DNA from: Pseudomonadota bacterium
Lineage (GTDB): Bacteria; Pseudomonadota; Gammaproteobacteria; Burkholderiales; Ferrovaceae
Length of the DNA: 38,503 bases
Direction: 5' to 3'
Assembly: GCA_021826025.1 (NCBI GenBank)
Contig: JAKBBG010000005.1
Location: forward strand, 1-38,503
Shown: positions 8,713-38,503 of the stretch, one piece after another
Layout of the letters: every line of letters starts with the position of its first letter
Position numbering within the stretch: the first letter of the stretch is position 1
The notes under the pieces: model-generated
Databases searched by the model: none
The model's input: the letters and a program-made list of their open reading frames with translations, nothing else
What the model was told of the DNA's origin: nothing
Translations under genes and position numbers: made by a program

Positions 8713-8795
8713 CCCCCTCTTGTCCATCGGGTTTGCGAATCAGCCCATTCATTATCAGTCTCCTGCATTCTTTGCTCCCCGGAGGGTGTGGAATT

Positions 8796-9908
8796 ATGTC
8801 AACAATGGGATCGTTTGAAGAGCTGGCCACGTTGACGGCTCAGCTCCCAATCCGTTGGTACTTTGATCCGGCAATTGCAACACTGGAACAGCAATCCCTG
8901 TTTGCCCGCGGCCCCCGCTACGCGGGGCACGAACTCATGGTTCCCAACGCGGGCGACTATTTTTCCCTGCCCTGGAAAGACCATGGGCAAGCGCTGGTCA
9001 ACAACGGCCAGAGCGTCGAACTGCTGTCCAACGTCTGCCGCCATCGCCAGGCCATCATGCTTGAAGGCCGCGGGAACGCCCAGAATATCGTGTGCCCGCT
9101 GCACCGGTGGACTTACGACCTCAAGGGGGAGCTTGCCGGCGCGCCACATTTCCCCGGGAAACCCTGCCTTAACCTGGACCAGGCCCCGTTGACGCGCTGG
9201 AACGGGTTGCTGTTCGAAGGTGCCTGGGACGTGGCTTCCGAGCTGAGCCGATGCGGCGCTGCGCGCGACCTGGATTTCAGCGGCTACATGCTGGACACGG
9301 TGAAAACGGCGCGGCACCACTTCAACTGGAAGACGTTCATCGAAGTCTATCTCGAGGATTACCACGTCGTGCCGTTCCATCCGGGTTTGTCCGGGTTCGT
9401 GGACTGCAACGCCTTGCGTTGGGAATACGGCGAGTGGCACAGCGTGCAGACCGTGGGAGTCAAGGATCATTTGCAGCGCCCCGGGTCCGAGGTTTACCGG
9501 CAGTGGCACGACGTCGTGCGCCGTTACAACCGGGGTGTGGACCCCAGCTATGGGGCGATCTGGATGGTGCTCTACCCCAACATCATGGTCGAGTGGTATC
9601 CCCACGTCCTGGTGGTCAGCACCGTATGGCCCGACGGGCCGGAACGGTGCACCAACGTGATCGAATTCTACTATCCTGAAGAAATCGTCCTTTTTGAACG
9701 GGAATTCGTGGAAGCGCAGCAGCAGGCCTACTTCGAAACGGCGGTGGAAGACGACGAAATCTGCGAACGGATGGCGCGCGGCCGCCGGGCCCTGATTGCC
9801 CGGGGCCTTGAAGACGGGGGGCCGTATCAATCGCCCATGGAAGACGGGATGCTTCACTTTCACGAGTTCGTGCGGCGACAAATCTCGCCCCTGATCCCGC
9901 GCGGTTGA
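8796..9908 (+). CDS. Rieske non-heme iron oxygenase, alpha-subunit type
   Basis: 370 residues. An N-terminal Rieske [2Fe-2S] domain (C81, H83, C100, H103 in a C-x-H...C-x2-H pattern) is followed by a catalytic SRPBCC domain. That domain carries the mononuclear iron site EDYHVVPFH (H190, H195) and a late acidic segment (VEDDEICERM) that probably supplies the Asp ligand. This is the architecture of aromatic-ring hydroxylases and choline-monooxygenase-like enzymes. The substrate is unknown. No beta subunit, ferredoxin or reductase gene is adjacent, so electrons must come from elsewhere. The ATG at 8796 has GGAGGG nine bases upstream. The downstream EamA transporter gene follows within a few bases and may be cotranscribed. 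Confidence 0.88.
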   Translation: MSTMGSFEELATLTAQLPIRWYFDPAIATLEQQSLFARGPRYAGHELMVPNAGDYFSLPWKDHGQALVNNGQSVELLSNVCRHRQAIMLEGRGNAQNIVCPLHRWTYDLKGELAGAPHFPGKPCLNLDQAPLTRWNGLLFEGAWDVASELSRCGAARDLDFSGYMLDTVKTARHHFNWKTFIEVYLEDYHVVPFHPGLSGFVDCNALRWEYGEWHSVQTVGVKDHLQRPGSEVYRQWHDVVRRYNRGVDPSYGAIWMVLYPNIMVEWYPHVLVVSTVWPDGPERCTNVIEFYYPEEIVLFEREFVEAQQQAYFETAVEDDEICERMARGRRALIARGLEDGGPYQSPMEDGMLHFHEFVRRQISPLIPRG

Positions 9909-32331: not shown

Positions 32332-33423
32332 ATGAGTCTCAAATGCGGTATCGTGGGGCTTCCCAACGTGGGGAAGTCCACACTTTTCAATGCGCTCACC
32401 AAGGCGGGCATCGCCGCGGAAAACTACCCCTTCTGCACCATCGAGCCGAACGTCGGTGTCGTGGAAGTGCCGGATCCCCGTCTGGGCGCCCTGGCTGAGA
32501 TCGTGCATCCTGAACGGGTCGTACCTGCAGTGACGGAATTCGTGGACATTGCGGGACTCGTGGCCGGAGCGTCAAAAGGCGAAGGCCTGGGCAACCAGTT
32601 CCTCGCCAACATCCGGGAAACCGATGCCATTGCCCATGTGGTGCGCTGCTTCGAGGATCCCAACGTGGTTCACGTGGCGGGGCGGGTTCAGCCCCTGGAC
32701 GACATTGAAACCATTCATACCGAGCTCGCGTTGGCTGACCTGGCCACGGCGGAAAAAGCCCTGGGCAGAGCCCAGAAGTCGGCCAAATCTGGCGACAAGG
32801 AGGCCCTGAAGCTGACAGGCCTGTTGGAACAGGTGCTGGCCCAGCTCAACCAGGGGCGGCCGGTGAGGACTCTGGGGCTGGATGCAGAAGCGACAGCCTT
32901 GCTTCGCCCGCTTTGCCTGATCACGGCCAAGCCCACGCTGTACGTGGCCAATGTTCTGGAAAACGGATTTCAAGGCAATTCCCTGCTGGAGCAGGTCCAG
33001 GCATTCGGGCAAAAAGAAGGGGCGCCGGTCGTGCCCATTTGCGCTGCCTTGGAAGCCCAAATGGCCGACCTGAGCGAGGCGGACCAGACCTTGTTCCTGG
33101 CGGACATGGGATTGTCAGAGCCCGGGCTGAACCGCCTGATCCGGGCGGCTTACCGGCTGCTCGGGCTGGAGACCTATTTTACTGCGGGCGTCAAGGAAGT
33201 CAGGGCCTGGACGATCCATGCCGGCGACACGGCGCCCCAGGCGGCAGGCGTCATTCACAACGATTTCGAGCGGGGCTTTATCAGGGCAGAAGTCATTTCC
33301 TACGAGGATTTCGTGGCCTGCCACGGCGAACAGGGCGCCAAAGAGGCGGGGAAAATGCGACTGGAAGGCAAGGAGTATCGGGTAAAAGACGGGGATGTGA
33401 TGCATTTCCGCTTCAATGTCTGA
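32332..33423 (+). CDS. ychF: Redox-regulated ATPase/GTPase YchF
   Basis: 363 residues (the usual length). Obg-family P-loop protein that prefers ATP and associates with ribosomes. G1 GLPNVGKST at residues 9-17, G3 DIAGL, the altered G4 NVLE in place of NKxD (hallmark of YchF), a helical insertion, and the C-terminal TGS domain ([19 protein letters not shown]...VMHFRFNV). Follows pth as in E. coli. Confidence 0.97.
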
Positions 33424-33482
33424 ACTTTGCCCTGGTTAAATTGCCTGACGGAACGGATTGGGTCGGATGTTTAAAAATCCCA

Positions 33483-33488
33483 TATAAT
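33483..33488 (+). promoter_or_regulatory. Candidate -10 box for the hydrolase-ACP-ketosynthase operon
   Basis: Perfect TATAAT at 33483-33488 in the 140-bp gap after ychF. The best upstream -35 candidate is TTGGGT (33458-33463) at a long 19-base spacing. Transcription from here would give a leader of about 70 bases, rich in A and T, before the AGGAG at 33550. Confidence 0.45.
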
Positions 33489-33563
33489 TCGTTCCGTTGC
33501 CCAAGATGTAACAAATTATTCCATGCAATGGGTTGTCTAATATTTAGTCAGGAGTGACCAGTC

Positions 33564-34412
33564 ATCGACACGATTCACTTGGCGGGAAAAGGGCGGGGCG
33601 CAGTCTTGCTGCTGCACGGGCTCTACGGAACCCCGCAACAGCTGCAGTACATCGGGCGCAAATTGAACGTGGCTGGCGGATACGATGTTCGCATTCCCAA
33701 CATCCAGGGATATTCGGTTTTCGACGAGCCCGTTCCCAGCAAAACGACGAACTGGGAACACTGGATGGAGCAAGTGGAGGCCCAGTTTGAAGACTTGAAG
33801 CAAGAGCACGGTCAAGTCAGCGTTGCGGGGCTTTGCATCGGCGCCGACTTGTGCATGGAGCTTGCCATTCGTCGCAGCGCGGATCTCCACGCACTTTGCC
33901 TTTATTCGGCACCGCTGCAGTATGACGGCTGGAACGTAACCTGGATGCGCTGGTTTAAATTTCTGGGTTACTACACTCCAGCCCGTTTCATGGTGTCCCT
34001 CACGGAACGGCCTCCCTACGGACTCAAGGATGAGCGCATCCGCCAGTGGGTGGCAACCCAGATGGCCAAACGAGGCACCTCGGCGCTGGGTTCTTCTCAA
34101 TCGCCGCTGACCGGCGTTTACCAGTCGGAACGCCTGATGAAGACGGTACGGCGGAATTTGCATAAAATCACCGTTCCGACGCTTGTTATGCACGCGGTGG
34201 AGGACGACCTGGCCAGCCCGCGCAACGCCGATATTATCGCCCGCAGCGTCTCCTCAAGCGAAGTTAAAAAAGTGCTGCTGGAAAACTGCTATCACATCAT
34301 CACCATGGATTTTGAAAAGGAGCGCGTGGCCCAGGAAACCTTGGAGTTTGTAAGCCGGCAGTCCTTGCGGATGCTGGATACGGACCAAACCAGGCTCCGG
34401 TTGGTAGGCTGA
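33564..34412 (+). CDS. Alpha/beta-hydrolase with Cys nucleophile (apparently ATC start)
   Basis: 282 residues counted from the ATC at 33564. Fold features: VLLLHGLYGTP (oxyanion loop, residues 15-24), nucleophile elbow GLCIG with Cys91 where most relatives have Ser, acid residue D214 or D215 in HAVEDDLASP, and His244 in NCYHIITMD. A GxCxG elbow is known in dienelactone hydrolases and PHA synthases. AGGAG at 33550-33554 stands nine bases before ATC. The in-frame upstream stop is at 33555-33557, and the first usual start is the TTG at 33579, 24 bases from the AGGAG. The ACP and ketosynthase genes follow closely, so the substrate may be a carrier-bound acyl chain (inference). Confidence 0.82.
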   Translation: MDTIHLAGKGRGAVLLLHGLYGTPQQLQYIGRKLNVAGGYDVRIPNIQGYSVFDEPVPSKTTNWEHWMEQVEAQFEDLKQEHGQVSVAGLCIGADLCMELAIRRSADLHALCLYSAPLQYDGWNVTWMRWFKFLGYYTPARFMVSLTERPPYGLKDERIRQWVATQMAKRGTSALGSSQSPLTGVYQSERLMKTVRRNLHKITVPTLVMHAVEDDLASPRNADIIARSVSSSEVKKVLLENCYHIITMDFEKERVAQETLEFVSRQSLRMLDTDQTRLRLVG

Positions 34413-34422
34413 CGCTGAACAT

Positions 34423-34689
34423 ATGAGTTCATTGCCCGTAATACAAAAAATGCTGGTGGAAGAATTTGGTTTGACTCCGGAACAGGTGCATGCCGAATCC
34501 CGGTTGGACGAGCTTGGAGTCGATTCGCTCGCCACGGTGGAATTCATGTTCATGCTGGAAGACAAGTTCAAGCTGAAAATGACCGGCGAACCCGTCCCCA
34601 TCAAAACGGTGGGCGACATCGCACGGGAAGTCGACGCCATGGTCGCAAAACAGGGCATTGTGCTGGATGCCGGGGGCCAGGCGTCCTGA
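34423..34689 (+). CDS. Acyl carrier protein
   Basis: 88 residues. Four-helix carrier with the phosphopantetheine attachment motif LGVDSL (Ser35), then ATVEFMFMLEDKF, the acidic helix II that partner enzymes bind. It starts 10 bases after the hydrolase stop and ends two bases before the ketosynthase ATG. It is less acidic in its C-terminal part than housekeeping AcpP and is not next to fabD/fabG, so it is probably a specialised ACP dedicated to the neighbouring ketosynthase (inference). The primary acpP must lie elsewhere. Confidence 0.92.
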   Translation: MSSLPVIQKMLVEEFGLTPEQVHAESRLDELGVDSLATVEFMFMLEDKFKLKMTGEPVPIKTVGDIAREVDAMVAKQGIVLDAGGQAS

Positions 34690-34691
34690 CC

Positions 34692-35927
34692 ATGCAACGC
34701 GTGGTCGTGACTGGCGTGGGCGCCATAACGCCGCTCGGTGAAAACGCCGATACGCTGGTACAAGCGCTGAATCAGGGCATTTCCGGCGTGCGTGCGCTCG
34801 ATGCACCCTGGACGGCGCAGCTGGCCTCCCCCTTGGCGGCGCCGGTCACGGTGCCGGTCGAAACCCATTTTCCGAAATTGCGCCGGCTGGTGCTCGACCG
34901 GGTGGCACAGCTGTCGCTATTGGCCAGTCGCGAGGCGCTCTCCCAGTCCGGGCTGGATTTTCACGGCGATGCTGGGCTGGAGTGCGGCATTTTCTGGGGA
35001 ACCGGCATGGGCGGTGCCACCACGCTCGAGCAGGCTTACGTCGAATCATTGCTCAACAAGGCGACCCGGCCCCGGCCTTCGACGATCGTCATGTTCATGG
35101 CAAACTCAGCAGCGGGACAGATCGGCATCGAATACAAAATCCGGGGGCCCAGTTTCACATACAGCTCGGCCTGCTCTTCCTCCGCGGTCGCCATCGGGGA
35201 AGCGTTCACTGCCATTCGTGAAGGCCGGATCCGTTACGCCGTGGCTGGCGGCGGAGAGGCCCTGCTGACGCTGGGGGTCATGAAGGCCTGGGAGTCGCTG
35301 CAGACCCTGGCAAAACCCGATCCTCTGCATCCTGAAGCCTCCTGCAAGCCATTTTCGAAGGACCGCAGCGGATTCATCCTGGGTGAAGGTGCAGCAGCCC
35401 TGATCCTTGAGAGCGCCGCTTCGGCAGAAGCGCGCGGGGCCGGGATCCTGGCAGAAATCATCGGGTACGGCAACACCACGGACGCCAGCCACATTACCCA
35501 GCCCGATGCGGGAGGGCAGGCGCGAGCCATGTGCGCAGCGCTTTCCCAGGCTGGGGTCGGCCCGAATGAGATCCACCACATCAATGCCCATGGAACAGGC
35601 ACCCTGGTGGGTGACGTATCGGAAACCCAGGCCATCAAGCAGGCCTTCGGCGAAGCGGCGCGCCGCATTCCCATCAGTGCCACCAAAGCACTGCACGGCC
35701 ACCTGATGGGGGCGACAGGGGCGGTGGAAATGGTGGCTGCGCTCGGCGCGCTGCAAACCCGGACGGTACCCCCGACAGCGCATCTGGACCATCCTGACCC
35801 CGAATGCGATCTTGACTATGTGCCCGAAGGGGCCAGGACATTGGCCGTGCTGGACACGGTCATGAGCAATTCCTTTGGTTTTGGCGGCAACAACGCCGTG
35901 CTGATTGCTCGGCGCTACTCTTCCTGA
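34692..35927 (+). CDS. Beta-ketoacyl-ACP synthase II-type enzyme (FabF-like)
   Basis: 411 residues. Decarboxylative Claisen condensation of acyl and malonyl-ACP. The catalytic residues are Cys161 (YSSACSSSA), His300 (NAHGTGT) and His337, with Lys332 (TKALHGHLMGATG), matching E. coli FabF C163/H303/H340/K335. The C-terminal loop is GFGGNN rather than the usual GFGGTN. Full length and apparently active. Because it sits with its own ACP and a hydrolase instead of a fab cluster, a specialised acyl product is likely, not bulk fatty acid synthesis. It converges on the TPR-glycosyltransferase gene. Confidence 0.92.
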   Translation: MQRVVVTGVGAITPLGENADTLVQALNQGISGVRALDAPWTAQLASPLAAPVTVPVETHFPKLRRLVLDRVAQLSLLASREALSQSGLDFHGDAGLECGIFWGTGMGGATTLEQAYVESLLNKATRPRPSTIVMFMANSAAGQIGIEYKIRGPSFTYSSACSSSAVAIGEAFTAIREGRIRYAVAGGGEALLTLGVMKAWESLQTLAKPDPLHPEASCKPFSKDRSGFILGEGAAALILESAASAEARGAGILAEIIGYGNTTDASHITQPDAGGQARAMCAALSQAGVGPNEIHHINAHGTGTLVGDVSETQAIKQAFGEAARRIPISATKALHGHLMGATGAVEMVAALGALQTRTVPPTAHLDHPDPECDLDYVPEGARTLAVLDTVMSNSFGFGGNNAVLIARRYSS

Positions 35928-35944
35928 CGAACTCTCTCCTTCTG

Positions 35945-35968
35945 CGGCGTGCCAGGCCCGGCACGCCG
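35945..35968. terminator. Hairpin between convergent ketosynthase and glycosyltransferase genes
   Basis: Perfect 9-bp stem CGGCGTGCC/GGCACGCCG with a six-base loop, in the 42-bp gap between two converging stops. Position suits a shared terminator, but neither strand has a U-run, so mechanism and efficiency are uncertain. Confidence 0.35.
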
Positions 35969-35969
35969 G

Positions 35970-37619
35970 TCAGAACGTGCCAAGAATCCCGCGTACACGC
36001 TGGATGACGCCTGCCCAGTCGCCAGCCTTTGACTGTCGGAACAGTCTTGCCGACGGATACCAGGGAGAGTCTTCACGATCCAGCATCCAGCGGTAGTCGG
36101 GGGCATGCGGCAGCAGGATCCAGACGGGCTTTCCCAATGCGCCCGCAAGATGGGCGGTGCTCGTGTCCACGCTGATGACGAGGTCAAGGCATTCGATCAA
36201 TGCCGCAGCGTCCGAGAAGTCGGTGAGATCGTCTTGGTGCTGCCGAATTTCAGGGTGTGCTTCCAGGATTTCCAGATCGGGCTGGCGGTATTCCTTCTGC
36301 AGCGAGTGCCATTCAATCGGAAGGTCCGTCAGCGGCAGCAATTCCTTCAGCCAGATGCTGCGATTTAGATCGTTCTTGTGGTCCCTGCTGCCGGACCAGG
36401 TGAGACCGACCCTTAGCCGCGCTGGCCCAAGTTTTTCCTGCCATACCTTCACTTTTTCCTTGTCGCTGAAAAGGTAGGGGACTTCAGCCGGGATGGTTCC
36501 AACCGTCGTCTTGAACACGTAGGGAAGGCTCATGATCGGACAATACGCGTCAACCTCCGGCAACACATCACCTTTGGCAACCACGGTCATCGGGCAATTC
36601 AGGGTTGAGACGAGAGGCACCAGGGGTTGCTGAACCTCAAGAATGATGTCGGCCCCCAGGGCGCGGACTTGGGGCAGGTAGCGGCAAAACTGGATGACGT
36701 CGCCGTATCCCTGTTCACCATGAATCAAGAGCTTGCGTCCACGGATATCCGCCTGACCACGCCAGGGGGGCTTCGGGAAGGGGGGGTAGTTGTGTTTGAG
36801 CGGGTCATACTTGAAACGCCATTCAAACAGTTCCCATCCCTCAAGATATTGCCCCATCAATATCAAGAGCAGGGATTTATTCCAATAGGCTTCGACATGG
36901 TCCGGCTTGAGTGCCAGGGCCTGATCGTAACTGGCCAGCGCTTCATTCAGTCGTTGTGTCTCCCGAAGTGCATTGCCGCGATTGCTATGCGCTTCAGCAA
37001 AGTCAGGTTTGAGTGCCAGCGCCCTGTCGTAACTGGCCAGCGCTTCATCCAGTCGTTGGGTCTCTCGAAGCGCATTGCCGCGATTACCATGCGCTTCAGC
37101 AAAGTCGGGTTTGAGCGCCAGCGCCCTGTCGTAACTGGCCAGCGCTTCATCCAGTCGTTTGAGATCCTTAAGGGCATTCCCCCGATTGAAATGCGCCTCG
37201 GCATGGCTTGGCATGTATGACAGGGCCTTGTCATAACTGGCTATCGCATCTGCTGGGCGATGTAAATCTCGCAGGGCATTGCCTTGGTTGCTATAGGCCT
37301 CAGCAAAGTCGGGTTTGAGAGCGAGCGCCCTATCGTAATTGGCAAGAGCTTCTGCCGGCTGTTTGAGGTCTCGATGTGCCAATCCTAGATTATTGAATGC
37401 AAATGGGTTATTTGGAGATATCCTGGCAGATCTGCGCAAATGGTCTACGCATAACCTGAGCTGGCCGATCTGCAAATAGGCGGTTCCAAGCAAGTACAAC
37501 AGTTGTGCGTTGTTCTGCTGTTTTGCCAGAACTTTCGCGTACAGCTTAATTGCGTCCTCTATCTTTCCTGATTGATGCAGCTGAAACGCTTCACTGATGA
37601 ATTTTTGGACATTGATCAT
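35970..37619 (-). CDS. TPR-repeat glycosyltransferase (copy 1)
   Basis: 549 residues. The N-terminal half (about 5-276) is eight TPR units of 34 residues, with the consensus YDRALALKPDFAEAHSNRGN repeated almost unchanged. The C-terminal half (about 285-549) is a GT9/GT41-like glycosyltransferase domain with GEQGYGDVIQFCRYLPQV, GLTWSGSRDHKND and SVDTSTAHLAGALGKPVWILLP. Such fusions are often annotated as O-GlcNAc-transferase-like or heptosyltransferase-like; donor and acceptor are unknown. No ribosome binding site is evident before the ATG at 37619. This part of the window looks richer in A and T than the rest, especially 37240-37620. Residues from LLIHGEQGY to AGVIQ are identical to copy 2, but the last eight differ (RVRGILGTF against SVKEQVCQKF). 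Confidence 0.85.
   Translation of the reverse strand: MINVQKFISEAFQLHQSGKIEDAIKLYAKVLAKQQNNAQLLYLLGTAYLQIGQLRLCVDHLRRSARISPNNPFAFNNLGLAHRDLKQPAEALANYDRALALKPDFAEAYSNQGNALRDLHRPADAIASYDKALSYMPSHAEAHFNRGNALKDLKRLDEALASYDRALALKPDFAEAHGNRGNALRETQRLDEALASYDRALALKPDFAEAHSNRGNALRETQRLNEALASYDQALALKPDHVEAYWNKSLLLILMGQYLEGWELFEWRFKYDPLKHNYPPFPKPPWRGQADIRGRKLLIHGEQGYGDVIQFCRYLPQVRALGADIILEVQQPLVPLVSTLNCPMTVVAKGDVLPEVDAYCPIMSLPYVFKTTVGTIPAEVPYLFSDKEKVKVWQEKLGPARLRVGLTWSGSRDHKNDLNRSIWLKELLPLTDLPIEWHSLQKEYRQPDLEILEAHPEIRQHQDDLTDFSDAAALIECLDLVISVDTSTAHLAGALGKPVWILLPHAPDYRWMLDREDSPWYPSARLFRQSKAGDWAGVIQRVRGILGTF
36000..36786 (-). repeat. Long direct repeat, copy A
   Basis: At least 787 bp repeated at 37717-38503 (offset 1717 bp). 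One difference was found, G at 36018 against A at 37735, which is a synonymous change in an Asp codon. It covers the glycosyltransferase domain, ends abruptly 30 bp inside the 3' end of the gene, and continues at the other side beyond what the window shows of copy B. Confidence 0.92.
36927..37436 (-). repeat. 102-bp tandem repeats coding for TPR units
   Basis: Five units with a strict 102-bp period (phase marks at 36927, 37029, 37131, 37233 and 37335). The three nearest the glycosyltransferase domain are nearly identical in DNA as well as protein, which suggests recent expansion by slippage or recombination. Confidence 0.8.
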
Positions 37620-37683
37620 AGCGAGACAGGGAATGCTCAGGCCGGGTTGCCGATGAACCGGAAGTCAGCACGCTCAGGCCCCG

Positions 37684-38503
37684 TCAGAATTTCTGGCATA
37701 CCTGTTCCTTCACTGACTGGATGACGCCTGCCCAATCGCCAGCCTTTGACTGTCGGAACAGTCTTGCCGACGGATACCAGGGAGAGTCTTCACGATCCAG
37801 CATCCAGCGGTAGTCGGGGGCATGCGGCAGCAGGATCCAGACGGGCTTTCCCAATGCGCCCGCAAGATGGGCGGTGCTCGTGTCCACGCTGATGACGAGG
37901 TCAAGGCATTCGATCAATGCCGCAGCGTCCGAGAAGTCGGTGAGATCGTCTTGGTGCTGCCGAATTTCAGGGTGTGCTTCCAGGATTTCCAGATCGGGCT
38001 GGCGGTATTCCTTCTGCAGCGAGTGCCATTCAATCGGAAGGTCCGTCAGCGGCAGCAATTCCTTCAGCCAGATGCTGCGATTTAGATCGTTCTTGTGGTC
38101 CCTGCTGCCGGACCAGGTGAGACCGACCCTTAGCCGCGCTGGCCCAAGTTTTTCCTGCCATACCTTCACTTTTTCCTTGTCGCTGAAAAGGTAGGGGACT
38201 TCAGCCGGGATGGTTCCAACCGTCGTCTTGAACACGTAGGGAAGGCTCATGATCGGACAATACGCGTCAACCTCCGGCAACACATCACCTTTGGCAACCA
38301 CGGTCATCGGGCAATTCAGGGTTGAGACGAGAGGCACCAGGGGTTGCTGAACCTCAAGAATGATGTCGGCCCCCAGGGCGCGGACTTGGGGCAGGTAGCG
38401 GCAAAACTGGATGACGTCGCCGTATCCCTGTTCACCATGAATCAAGAGCTTGCGTCCACGGATATCCGCCTGACCACGCCAGGGGGGCTTCGGGAAGGGG
38501 GGG
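37684..38503 (-). CDS. TPR-repeat glycosyltransferase (copy 2), partial
   Basis: Only the C-terminal 273 codons are in the window; the N-terminus lies beyond 38503. The visible part is the whole glycosyltransferase domain, identical in protein to copy 1 except for the last residues (SVKEQVCQKF after GVIQ). The reading frame is open to the window edge, so the ATG at 38445 is internal and not the true start. The gap to copy 1 is 64 bp. Both copies point the same way, consistent with tandem duplication of a unit of about 1.7 kb, or gene conversion between older paralogues. Confidence 0.85.
   Translation of the reverse strand, partial: PPFPKPPWRGQADIRGRKLLIHGEQGYGDVIQFCRYLPQVRALGADIILEVQQPLVPLVSTLNCPMTVVAKGDVLPEVDAYCPIMSLPYVFKTTVGTIPAEVPYLFSDKEKVKVWQEKLGPARLRVGLTWSGSRDHKNDLNRSIWLKELLPLTDLPIEWHSLQKEYRQPDLEILEAHPEIRQHQDDLTDFSDAAALIECLDLVISVDTSTAHLAGALGKPVWILLPHAPDYRWMLDREDSPWYPSARLFRQSKAGDWAGVIQSVKEQVCQKF
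37717..38503 (-). repeat. Long direct repeat, copy B
   Basis: Partner of 36000-36786, matching up to the last base of the window, so its true length is not known. See copy A for the single difference. Confidence 0.92.

Follow-up and report, generated by a model that had tools for sequence, protein, structure and literature searches.

In a 38,503-nucleotide stretch of DNA from a member of the Ferrovaceae (assembly GCA_021826025.1, contig JAKBBG010000005.1), here called the window, three open reading frames on the forward strand encode an alpha/beta-hydrolase with a cysteine nucleophile, an acyl carrier protein (ACP) and a beta-ketoacyl-ACP synthase, or ketosynthase (KS) (Table 1). The genome is a draft of 1.74 Mb that is 92.7% complete. 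A gap of 10 bp separates the hydrolase stop codon from the ATG of the ACP gene and a gap of 2 bp separates the ACP stop codon from the ATG of the KS gene, so the coordinates bear out the three tightly packed genes described in the original prediction, and the catalytic residues that it named (Cys161, His300 and His337 of the KS, Ser35 of the ACP, and Cys91 in the GLCIG elbow of the hydrolase) are all found at their places. The domains of all three proteins exceed their Pfam cut-offs. A reductase or dehydratase gene is not part of the unit, and none of fabD, fabG or a phosphopantetheinyl transferase gene was recognised on reading the lists of open reading frames in the window, no search having been aimed at them.

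Table 1. Features of the hydrolase-ACP-KS locus, in window positions.
Feature	Position	Strand	Basis
Shine-Dalgarno-like AGGAG	33550-33554	+	9 nt before ATC 33564
Inferred non-AUG start codon ATC	33564-33566	+	comparative data
Alpha/beta-hydrolase, bacterial monoacylglycerol-lipase-like, nucleophile Cys91	33564-34412	+	PF12146 (Hydrolase_4), 67.9 bits; AF2 model
Codon of catalytic Cys91 (TGC) in GLCIG	33834-33836	+	sequence, alignments
Codon of Asp214, likely catalytic acid	34203-34205	+	invariant in 73 rows; aligns with Asp of monoacylglycerol lipase sequences
Codon of His244, likely catalytic base	34293-34295	+	invariant in 73 rows; aligns with His of monoacylglycerol lipase sequences
Acyl carrier protein, attachment site Ser35 (codon 34525-34527)	34423-34689	+	PF00550, 37.7 bits
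Beta-ketoacyl-ACP synthase, trio type, Cys161-His300-His337	34692-35927	+	PF00109 and PF02801; outside FabF, FabB and aryl polyene KSs in quick trees

The trio is a conserved gene unit. Twenty-one hydrolase loci of the Ferrovaceae were examined, the window included, of which 19 are uncut and two run into a contig edge. The order hydrolase, ACP, KS is kept in 19 of the 19 uncut loci, with conserved spacing, and Cys91 is present in all 21; a further partial hydrolase match in genome G018 is not among them. The trio is thus confirmed as real and, given the order kept across these loci, its arrangement goes beyond chance. Setting genus g7 aside, 26 other genomes of the family were compared: 22 contain a KS of the trio type (71-87% identity), and the four that lack it are 57-85% complete; genome sizes in the family are 1.1-2.7 Mb. 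For a wider survey we used the best 80 of 576 confirmed stretches with a hydrolase match (the named loci), a sample that leans to the kin of the window and in which 14 loci (L066-L079) are also among the 21 Ferrovaceae loci. A KS lies within 3 kb of the hydrolase in 64 of the 80, and an ACP in 65. Among these best 80 the closest records come from an unclassified Betaproteobacteria metagenome-assembled genome (MAG) (86%), a Ferrovaceae MAG (81%) and Ferrovum myxofaciens P3G (74%). The survey of gene neighbourhoods and of Cys91 proposed in the original prediction therefore speaks for a conserved unit.

Among 120 relatives, 50 genomes matched the hydrolase at E 0.001, a count that takes in weak matches. 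The gene is rare across the class: with the own genome counted, the hydrolase is found in 3 of 274 genomes at E 1e-40 and the KS in 8 of 274 at E 1e-90. The trio combines known kinds of enzyme in a conserved variant, and no description of it or of its contexts was found in the open-licence literature searched, a scope that most subscription journals fall outside. A paper on fabY and colistin deals with a different ketosynthase gene (PMC12323585).

The AlphaFold (AF2) model of the hydrolase (pLDDT 85.9, pTM 0.87) best matches bacterial monoacylglycerol lipases (MGL) (5xks, Z 33.2; 3rm3, Z 32.7), a Foldseek search agrees, and a profile search also gives MGL, with Cys standing where MGL has Ser. 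The model shows the predicted fold to be that of the bacterial MGLs. With the lipases of Bacillus sp. H257 (3rm3) and Geobacillus (5xks) and with the carboxylesterase Est30 this fold is shared over nearly the whole chain (rmsd 1.8, 26-28% identity), and the elbow, acid and base of the MGL triad align with those of the window hydrolase. Unlike the bacterial MGLs, the window hydrolase has Cys and not Ser as nucleophile, belongs to a family in which the motifs DGW and E..P.G.K are invariant across 73 aligned rows, and is encoded in a gene coupled to those of an ACP and a KS. These rows comprise the window and 72 of the 80 named loci (L079 was dropped from the reference list), and Cys91 is at least 90% conserved in them.

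A Cys nucleophile within an alpha/beta-hydrolase fold, as in the window hydrolase, is also a feature of polyhydroxyalkanoate (PHA) synthases and dienelactone hydrolases. The kinship with these enzymes suggested by the original prediction was not borne out, since the hydrolase scores far below both models (12.3 bits against a cut-off of 365.3 for the class III PHA synthase model TIGR01836, and 14.4 bits against 21 for the dienelactone hydrolase model PF01738) and its fold is that of bacterial MGL. The OlsI O-acyltransferase model (NF052614) gave 20.7 bits against a cut-off of 385.

Among the named loci the nucleophile is Cys in 73 and Ser in 7 of 80. We built a hydrolase tree from the 73-row alignment minus 10 near-duplicates plus 14 other loci, a quick tree with SH-aLRT support alone and several long branches, on which the distribution of Cys and Ser needs four changes, three of them forced by the starred branches. 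Ser homologues adjoin ACP and KS genes in Halothiobacillus (L135, L136, L143) and in genus g7, and on a plasmid of X. sacchari an ACP and a KS lie within 6 kb of one; for those on plasmids of Paraburkholderia, Aureimonas and Caballeronia no ACP or KS is listed nearby in a gene table that is incomplete. Cys homologues without a KS make up 12 of the 80 named loci (four near a contig end), and in the Rhizobium and Agrobacterium clusters such homologues come without a listed ACP or KS. As judged from these homologues, a Cys nucleophile does not strictly go with the KS and is not specific to ACP chemistry. Ser homologues without ACP association, which had been named as evidence against the original prediction, do occur in distant branches and are not found in the clade of the window itself.

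The KS has intact Cys161, His300 and His337, together with Lys332, and both its N-terminal domain (PF00109, 150 bits) and its C-terminal domain (PF02801, 110.9 bits) are above cut-off, which places it in the beta-ketoacyl synthase superfamily. FabF is its best named model, and the score of 411 bits lies below the cut-off of TIGR03150 (493.75); it does exceed the cut-off of PRK07314, a broader subfamily model (394.1 bits against 387). A KS domain search of the genome marked three places, namely the trio KS, FabF on contig C24, which is 39% identical to it, and a Pfam match on contig C50 that was rejected as a third ketosynthase and reads by eye as a thiolase. In a tree of 97 rows (three identical ones of 100 having been dropped), 89 KSs of the trio type are split with support of 100 from FabF, FabB and one further KS. 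In a second tree of 56 rows, made up of 54 of the 97 and the two aryl polyene KSs of Escherichia coli CFT073, the trio KSs stay split, with support of 94; the branches of the aryl polyene rows are long. Both are quick trees with SH-aLRT support alone, and each has some long branches. The FabF of this genome and those of the family group with E. coli FabF (support 99), and the trio KSs stand apart.

With FabF (beta-ketoacyl-ACP synthase II) the trio KS shares the Cys-His-His set and Lys, its length and its overall sequence; unlike FabF, it comes with an ACP and a hydrolase of its own and falls on the other side of both trees. The aryl polyene cluster of E. coli CFT073 likewise has KSs with their own ACPs, but the window KS is just 36% and 30% identical to the two, which we take to be ApeR and ApeO. 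The TIGR03150 score and both trees reject the KS as a housekeeping FabF, and its place in the second tree rejects a grouping with the aryl polyene KSs. On sequence comparison, then, the KS is shown to lie outside housekeeping FabF, and the tree proposed in the original prediction, against FabF, FabB and the aryl polyene synthases, sets it apart from all of these. The ACP carries Ser35 in a DSL motif and belongs to the ACP family (PF00550, 37.7 bits against 20.8); it falls below the housekeeping model TIGR00517 (39.2 bits against 70.45) and below the cut-offs of the listed NCBIfam ACP models.

The hydrolase gene lies directly 5' of the ACP gene, and one genome is instructive about this position. 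In G082 a thioester-reductase-like protein (PF07993, 94.5 bits, cut-off 20.1; L158 10177-11388) precedes an ACP-KS pair of the trio type, whose KS falls in the Ferrovaceae/Sulfuricella group with support of 100. No hydrolase orthologue was found in this genome, which is 84% complete (best E 6.1e-4). A reductase in the place of the hydrolase fits that place being one of chain release, and the position 5' of ACP-KS may accordingly be read, by inference from gene order, as the release step.

We put about even confidence in the reading that the trio is a dedicated module for building and off-loading an acyl chain, in which a cysteine acyl-enzyme would unload the product of the KS and ACP by hydrolysis or transfer. 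The KS, through Cys161, would be primed with an acyl chain drawn from general fatty acid synthesis and would condense it with malonyl bound to Ser35 of the ACP encoded beside it; general enzymes would supply the phosphopantetheine, carry out malonyl transfer and perform any reduction. Cys91 of the hydrolase, aided by His244 and Asp214, would attack the ACP thioester, and the resulting acyl-enzyme would hand the chain on, the acceptor being water, a lipid or an amine. The modelled MGL-type fold, with its Cys, would be as compatible with transfer as with hydrolysis, or more so. In favour of such a module, the fold is that of enzymes cleaving long-chain acyl esters, and clusters of Nitrospirota, g7 and X. 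sacchari join ACP, KS and hydrolase with EamA, FemAB/GNAT or MipA. We infer the substrate, the direction of the reaction, the acceptor and the envelope destination of this chemistry.

Several observations weigh against this reading. A nearby KS is missing at 16 of the 80 named hydrolase loci, 5 of those near a contig end. Gene order varies outside the kin of the window, with ACP-KS-hydrolase at three Nitrospirota loci (L121, L129, L134) and with the KS and ACP on the opposite strand at L058, and ACP-KS pairs of the trio type without an adjoining hydrolase occur at L159-L164 and L170-L172. The replacement of hydrolase by reductase is a single case from an incomplete genome, and because Cys and Ser need four changes on the hydrolase tree, Cys cannot be decisive. 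The link to the envelope rests on neighbours that are specific to lineages, and the window trio stands alone. The density of response regulators is not raised near the hydrolase, being 10.7 per Mb within 5 kb against 17.1 per Mb at 5-10 kb in one query for which the Duganella genes lie partly in the outer band; general two-component linkage was rejected for want of enrichment, close adjacency being limited to some lineages. The original prediction had the hydrolase unload or transfer an ACP-bound chain onto an envelope acceptor. Unloading stands as the most economical role, and the envelope acceptor as a suggestion from lineage-specific neighbours. An envelope role or destination of the product is suggested by these contexts as a lead.

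The contexts themselves are as follows. In Duganella an RND pump with an outer-membrane factor (read by eye), a small protein and MipA (PF06629 in L107) precede hydrolase, ACP and KS, and several of the genes overlap. A Hydrogenophilales MAG (L138) has a response regulator 2 bp 3' of the KS. In Nitrospirota (L129 and L134) the order is HAD phosphatase, class III aminotransferase, an ArnE-like EamA protein (SMR), ACP, KS, hydrolase and FemAB/GNAT, and in genus g7 it is HAD, aminotransferase, hydrolase, ACP, KS and MipA. The X. sacchari plasmid carries two-component genes, TolC/ABC/HlyD, the hydrolase, two EamA genes, DegT and an arginase family gene, and the same cluster also holds GNAT, ACP, KS, class III aminotransferase and HAD. 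In Halothiobacillus (L135) an AMP ligase, a haem-oxygenase-like protein, a tetratricopeptide repeat (TPR) protein and an SDR come with hydrolase, ACP, KS, a Rieske protein and a type I polyketide synthase. At L171 (1645-10140) an ACP-KS pair of the trio type comes first in a gene set that resembles aryl polyene clusters in having AMP ligase, Lip_A_acyltrans, LolA_3 and MMPL genes.

A recurrent cluster was also noted at L181, L182, L184, L186 and L129, with HAD-IB phosphatase, class III aminotransferase, arginase-like, EamA and FemAB/GNAT genes. Two-component genes and MipA are often added to it, and it occurs, in differing subsets, in Xanthomonas, Aureimonas, rhizobia and Nitrospirota. From its gene content this cluster looks like an envelope amino-lipid pathway.

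How the chain leaves the ACP, and for what, is where the alternatives divide. The hydrolase could be a plain thioesterase without a dedicated acceptor, freeing 3-keto or fatty acids (to yield methyl ketones or a diffusible signal) or clearing stalled chains. The unit having no reductase or dehydratase gene, 3-ketoacyl-ACP would be the immediate product of the KS, and the KS and ACP are paired with both Ser and Cys forms of the enzyme, Ser enzymes of the MGL fold being known hydrolases. We nevertheless regard this as unlikely, as the EamA, FemAB/GNAT and MipA neighbours of several lineages point to a product that is retained, and Cys predominates among the named loci. More doubtful is a second fatty-acid set of KS and ACP that tunes the chains of the membrane or of lipid A (a FabF2 role), with the hydrolase editing or recycling lipid acyl groups as a monoacylglycerol or lysolipid lipase. 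FabF as the best named model, the presence of one other KS of this type in the genome and the MGL fold would all suit it; the 39% identity to the genome's own FabF and the separation in the trees do not, and a hydrolase gene coupled to those of an ACP and a KS suggests that the substrate is bound to ACP.

Two broader proposals place the trio in an envelope pathway. By one of them the trio is part of a larger amino-lipid pathway (HAD, class III aminotransferase, arginase-like protein, EamA pair, FemAB/GNAT and MipA) of which the Ferrovaceae keep the acyl part. The Nitrospirota loci L129 and L134 have the whole run from HAD through aminotransferase, SMR, ACP, KS and hydrolase to GNAT, the X. sacchari plasmid holds nearly all of these genes with TolC/ABC/HlyD, and the Rhizobium and Agrobacterium clusters have the set with a hydrolase and no ACP or KS listed. 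Against this, the class III aminotransferase was rejected as an obligatory partner, a search at E 1e-90 having matched 5 of 120 relatives, none of them a family member outside g7, and numerous trios are without such partners, which leaves the proposal improbable. By the other, which we consider possible though on balance not likely, the trio would be the core of an undescribed envelope-lipid pathway, with a private KS/ACP chain and a Cys-containing, MGL-like acyl-ACP transferase that loads a membrane or lipid-amine acceptor, the Ferrovaceae unit being gated, as infC is, by a conserved AUC, AUU or AUA start that IF3 would discriminate against.

The start of the hydrolase gene bears on this last point. 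The first conventional start in its reading frame is TTG at 33579; comparative data favour a site upstream of it, and translation seems to begin at a conserved non-AUG codon at 33564. In all 21 Ferrovaceae loci a Shine-Dalgarno-like 4-mer begins 9-16 nt 5' of this same codon. Counted as differences per pair at the first, second and third codon position, codons 2-5 give 0.29, 0.07 and 0.56 across these loci and so vary mostly at the third, and codons -5 to -1, with 0.62, 0.63 and 0.49, show no coding pattern. Codon 1 itself is ATC in 15 loci, ATT in 3, and ATA, GTC and GTT in one each, with ATG just before the GTT (L005-L024 are included in this count). ATG, GTG or TTG between the upstream stop and codon 1 is absent in 13 of the 21 and present in 8. 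In the same genome infC, read by eye, has an ATC start with the same 9-nt spacing from GGAG. The infC gene is controlled through its rare start codon.

Among distant homologues, ATG stands at this place or one codon off it in 4 of 11 (L090, L102, L116, L117). An ATG lies a few codons downstream in L088 and L142, L109 has TTG, and L082 has GTG just before the site; L080 and L081 have ATA or ATT/ATC at the start place in frames that are open further upstream, and L083 is without a clear start. At codon 6 every one of the 21 Ferrovaceae loci has ATG or TTG, which counts against an ATC start and means that codon 6 may serve as a second start. No upstream RNA element was found with Rfam in 33300-36100, the folding of 33520-33620 was no better than that of shuffles (z 1.02), and a scan for promoters and terminators yielded no more than chance.

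The neighbours of the trio in the window, read by eye, are ychF and TPR genes, and the family search of other window open reading frames was confined to a Rieske oxygenase gene (8757-9908), which shares 49-51% identity with the gene that follows the KS at L135, L136 and L143. It is present in 108 of 120 relatives, against 52 of 120 for the KS in a search at E 1e-80 that also caught FabF, so its presence is no evidence of partnership, and it was rejected as a partner of the trio on this distribution. Two TPR genes 3' of the trio (35970-38502, opposite strand) have long identical protein stretches in common, reflecting either recent duplication in tandem or an artefact of assembly; undetermined bases occur in the contig close to the second.

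If the module reading is right, a lipase-type fold with a Cys nucleophile, tied to a private ACP and KS, would be a new kind of enzyme for the release or transfer of acyl chains. The conserved non-AUG start of its gene, if true, would be a rare case outside infC in which start-codon control can be studied. Since the Ferrovaceae, whose genomes are small, retain the unit, and since other Betaproteobacteria and Nitrospirota also have it, its product is probably useful to many environmental bacteria.

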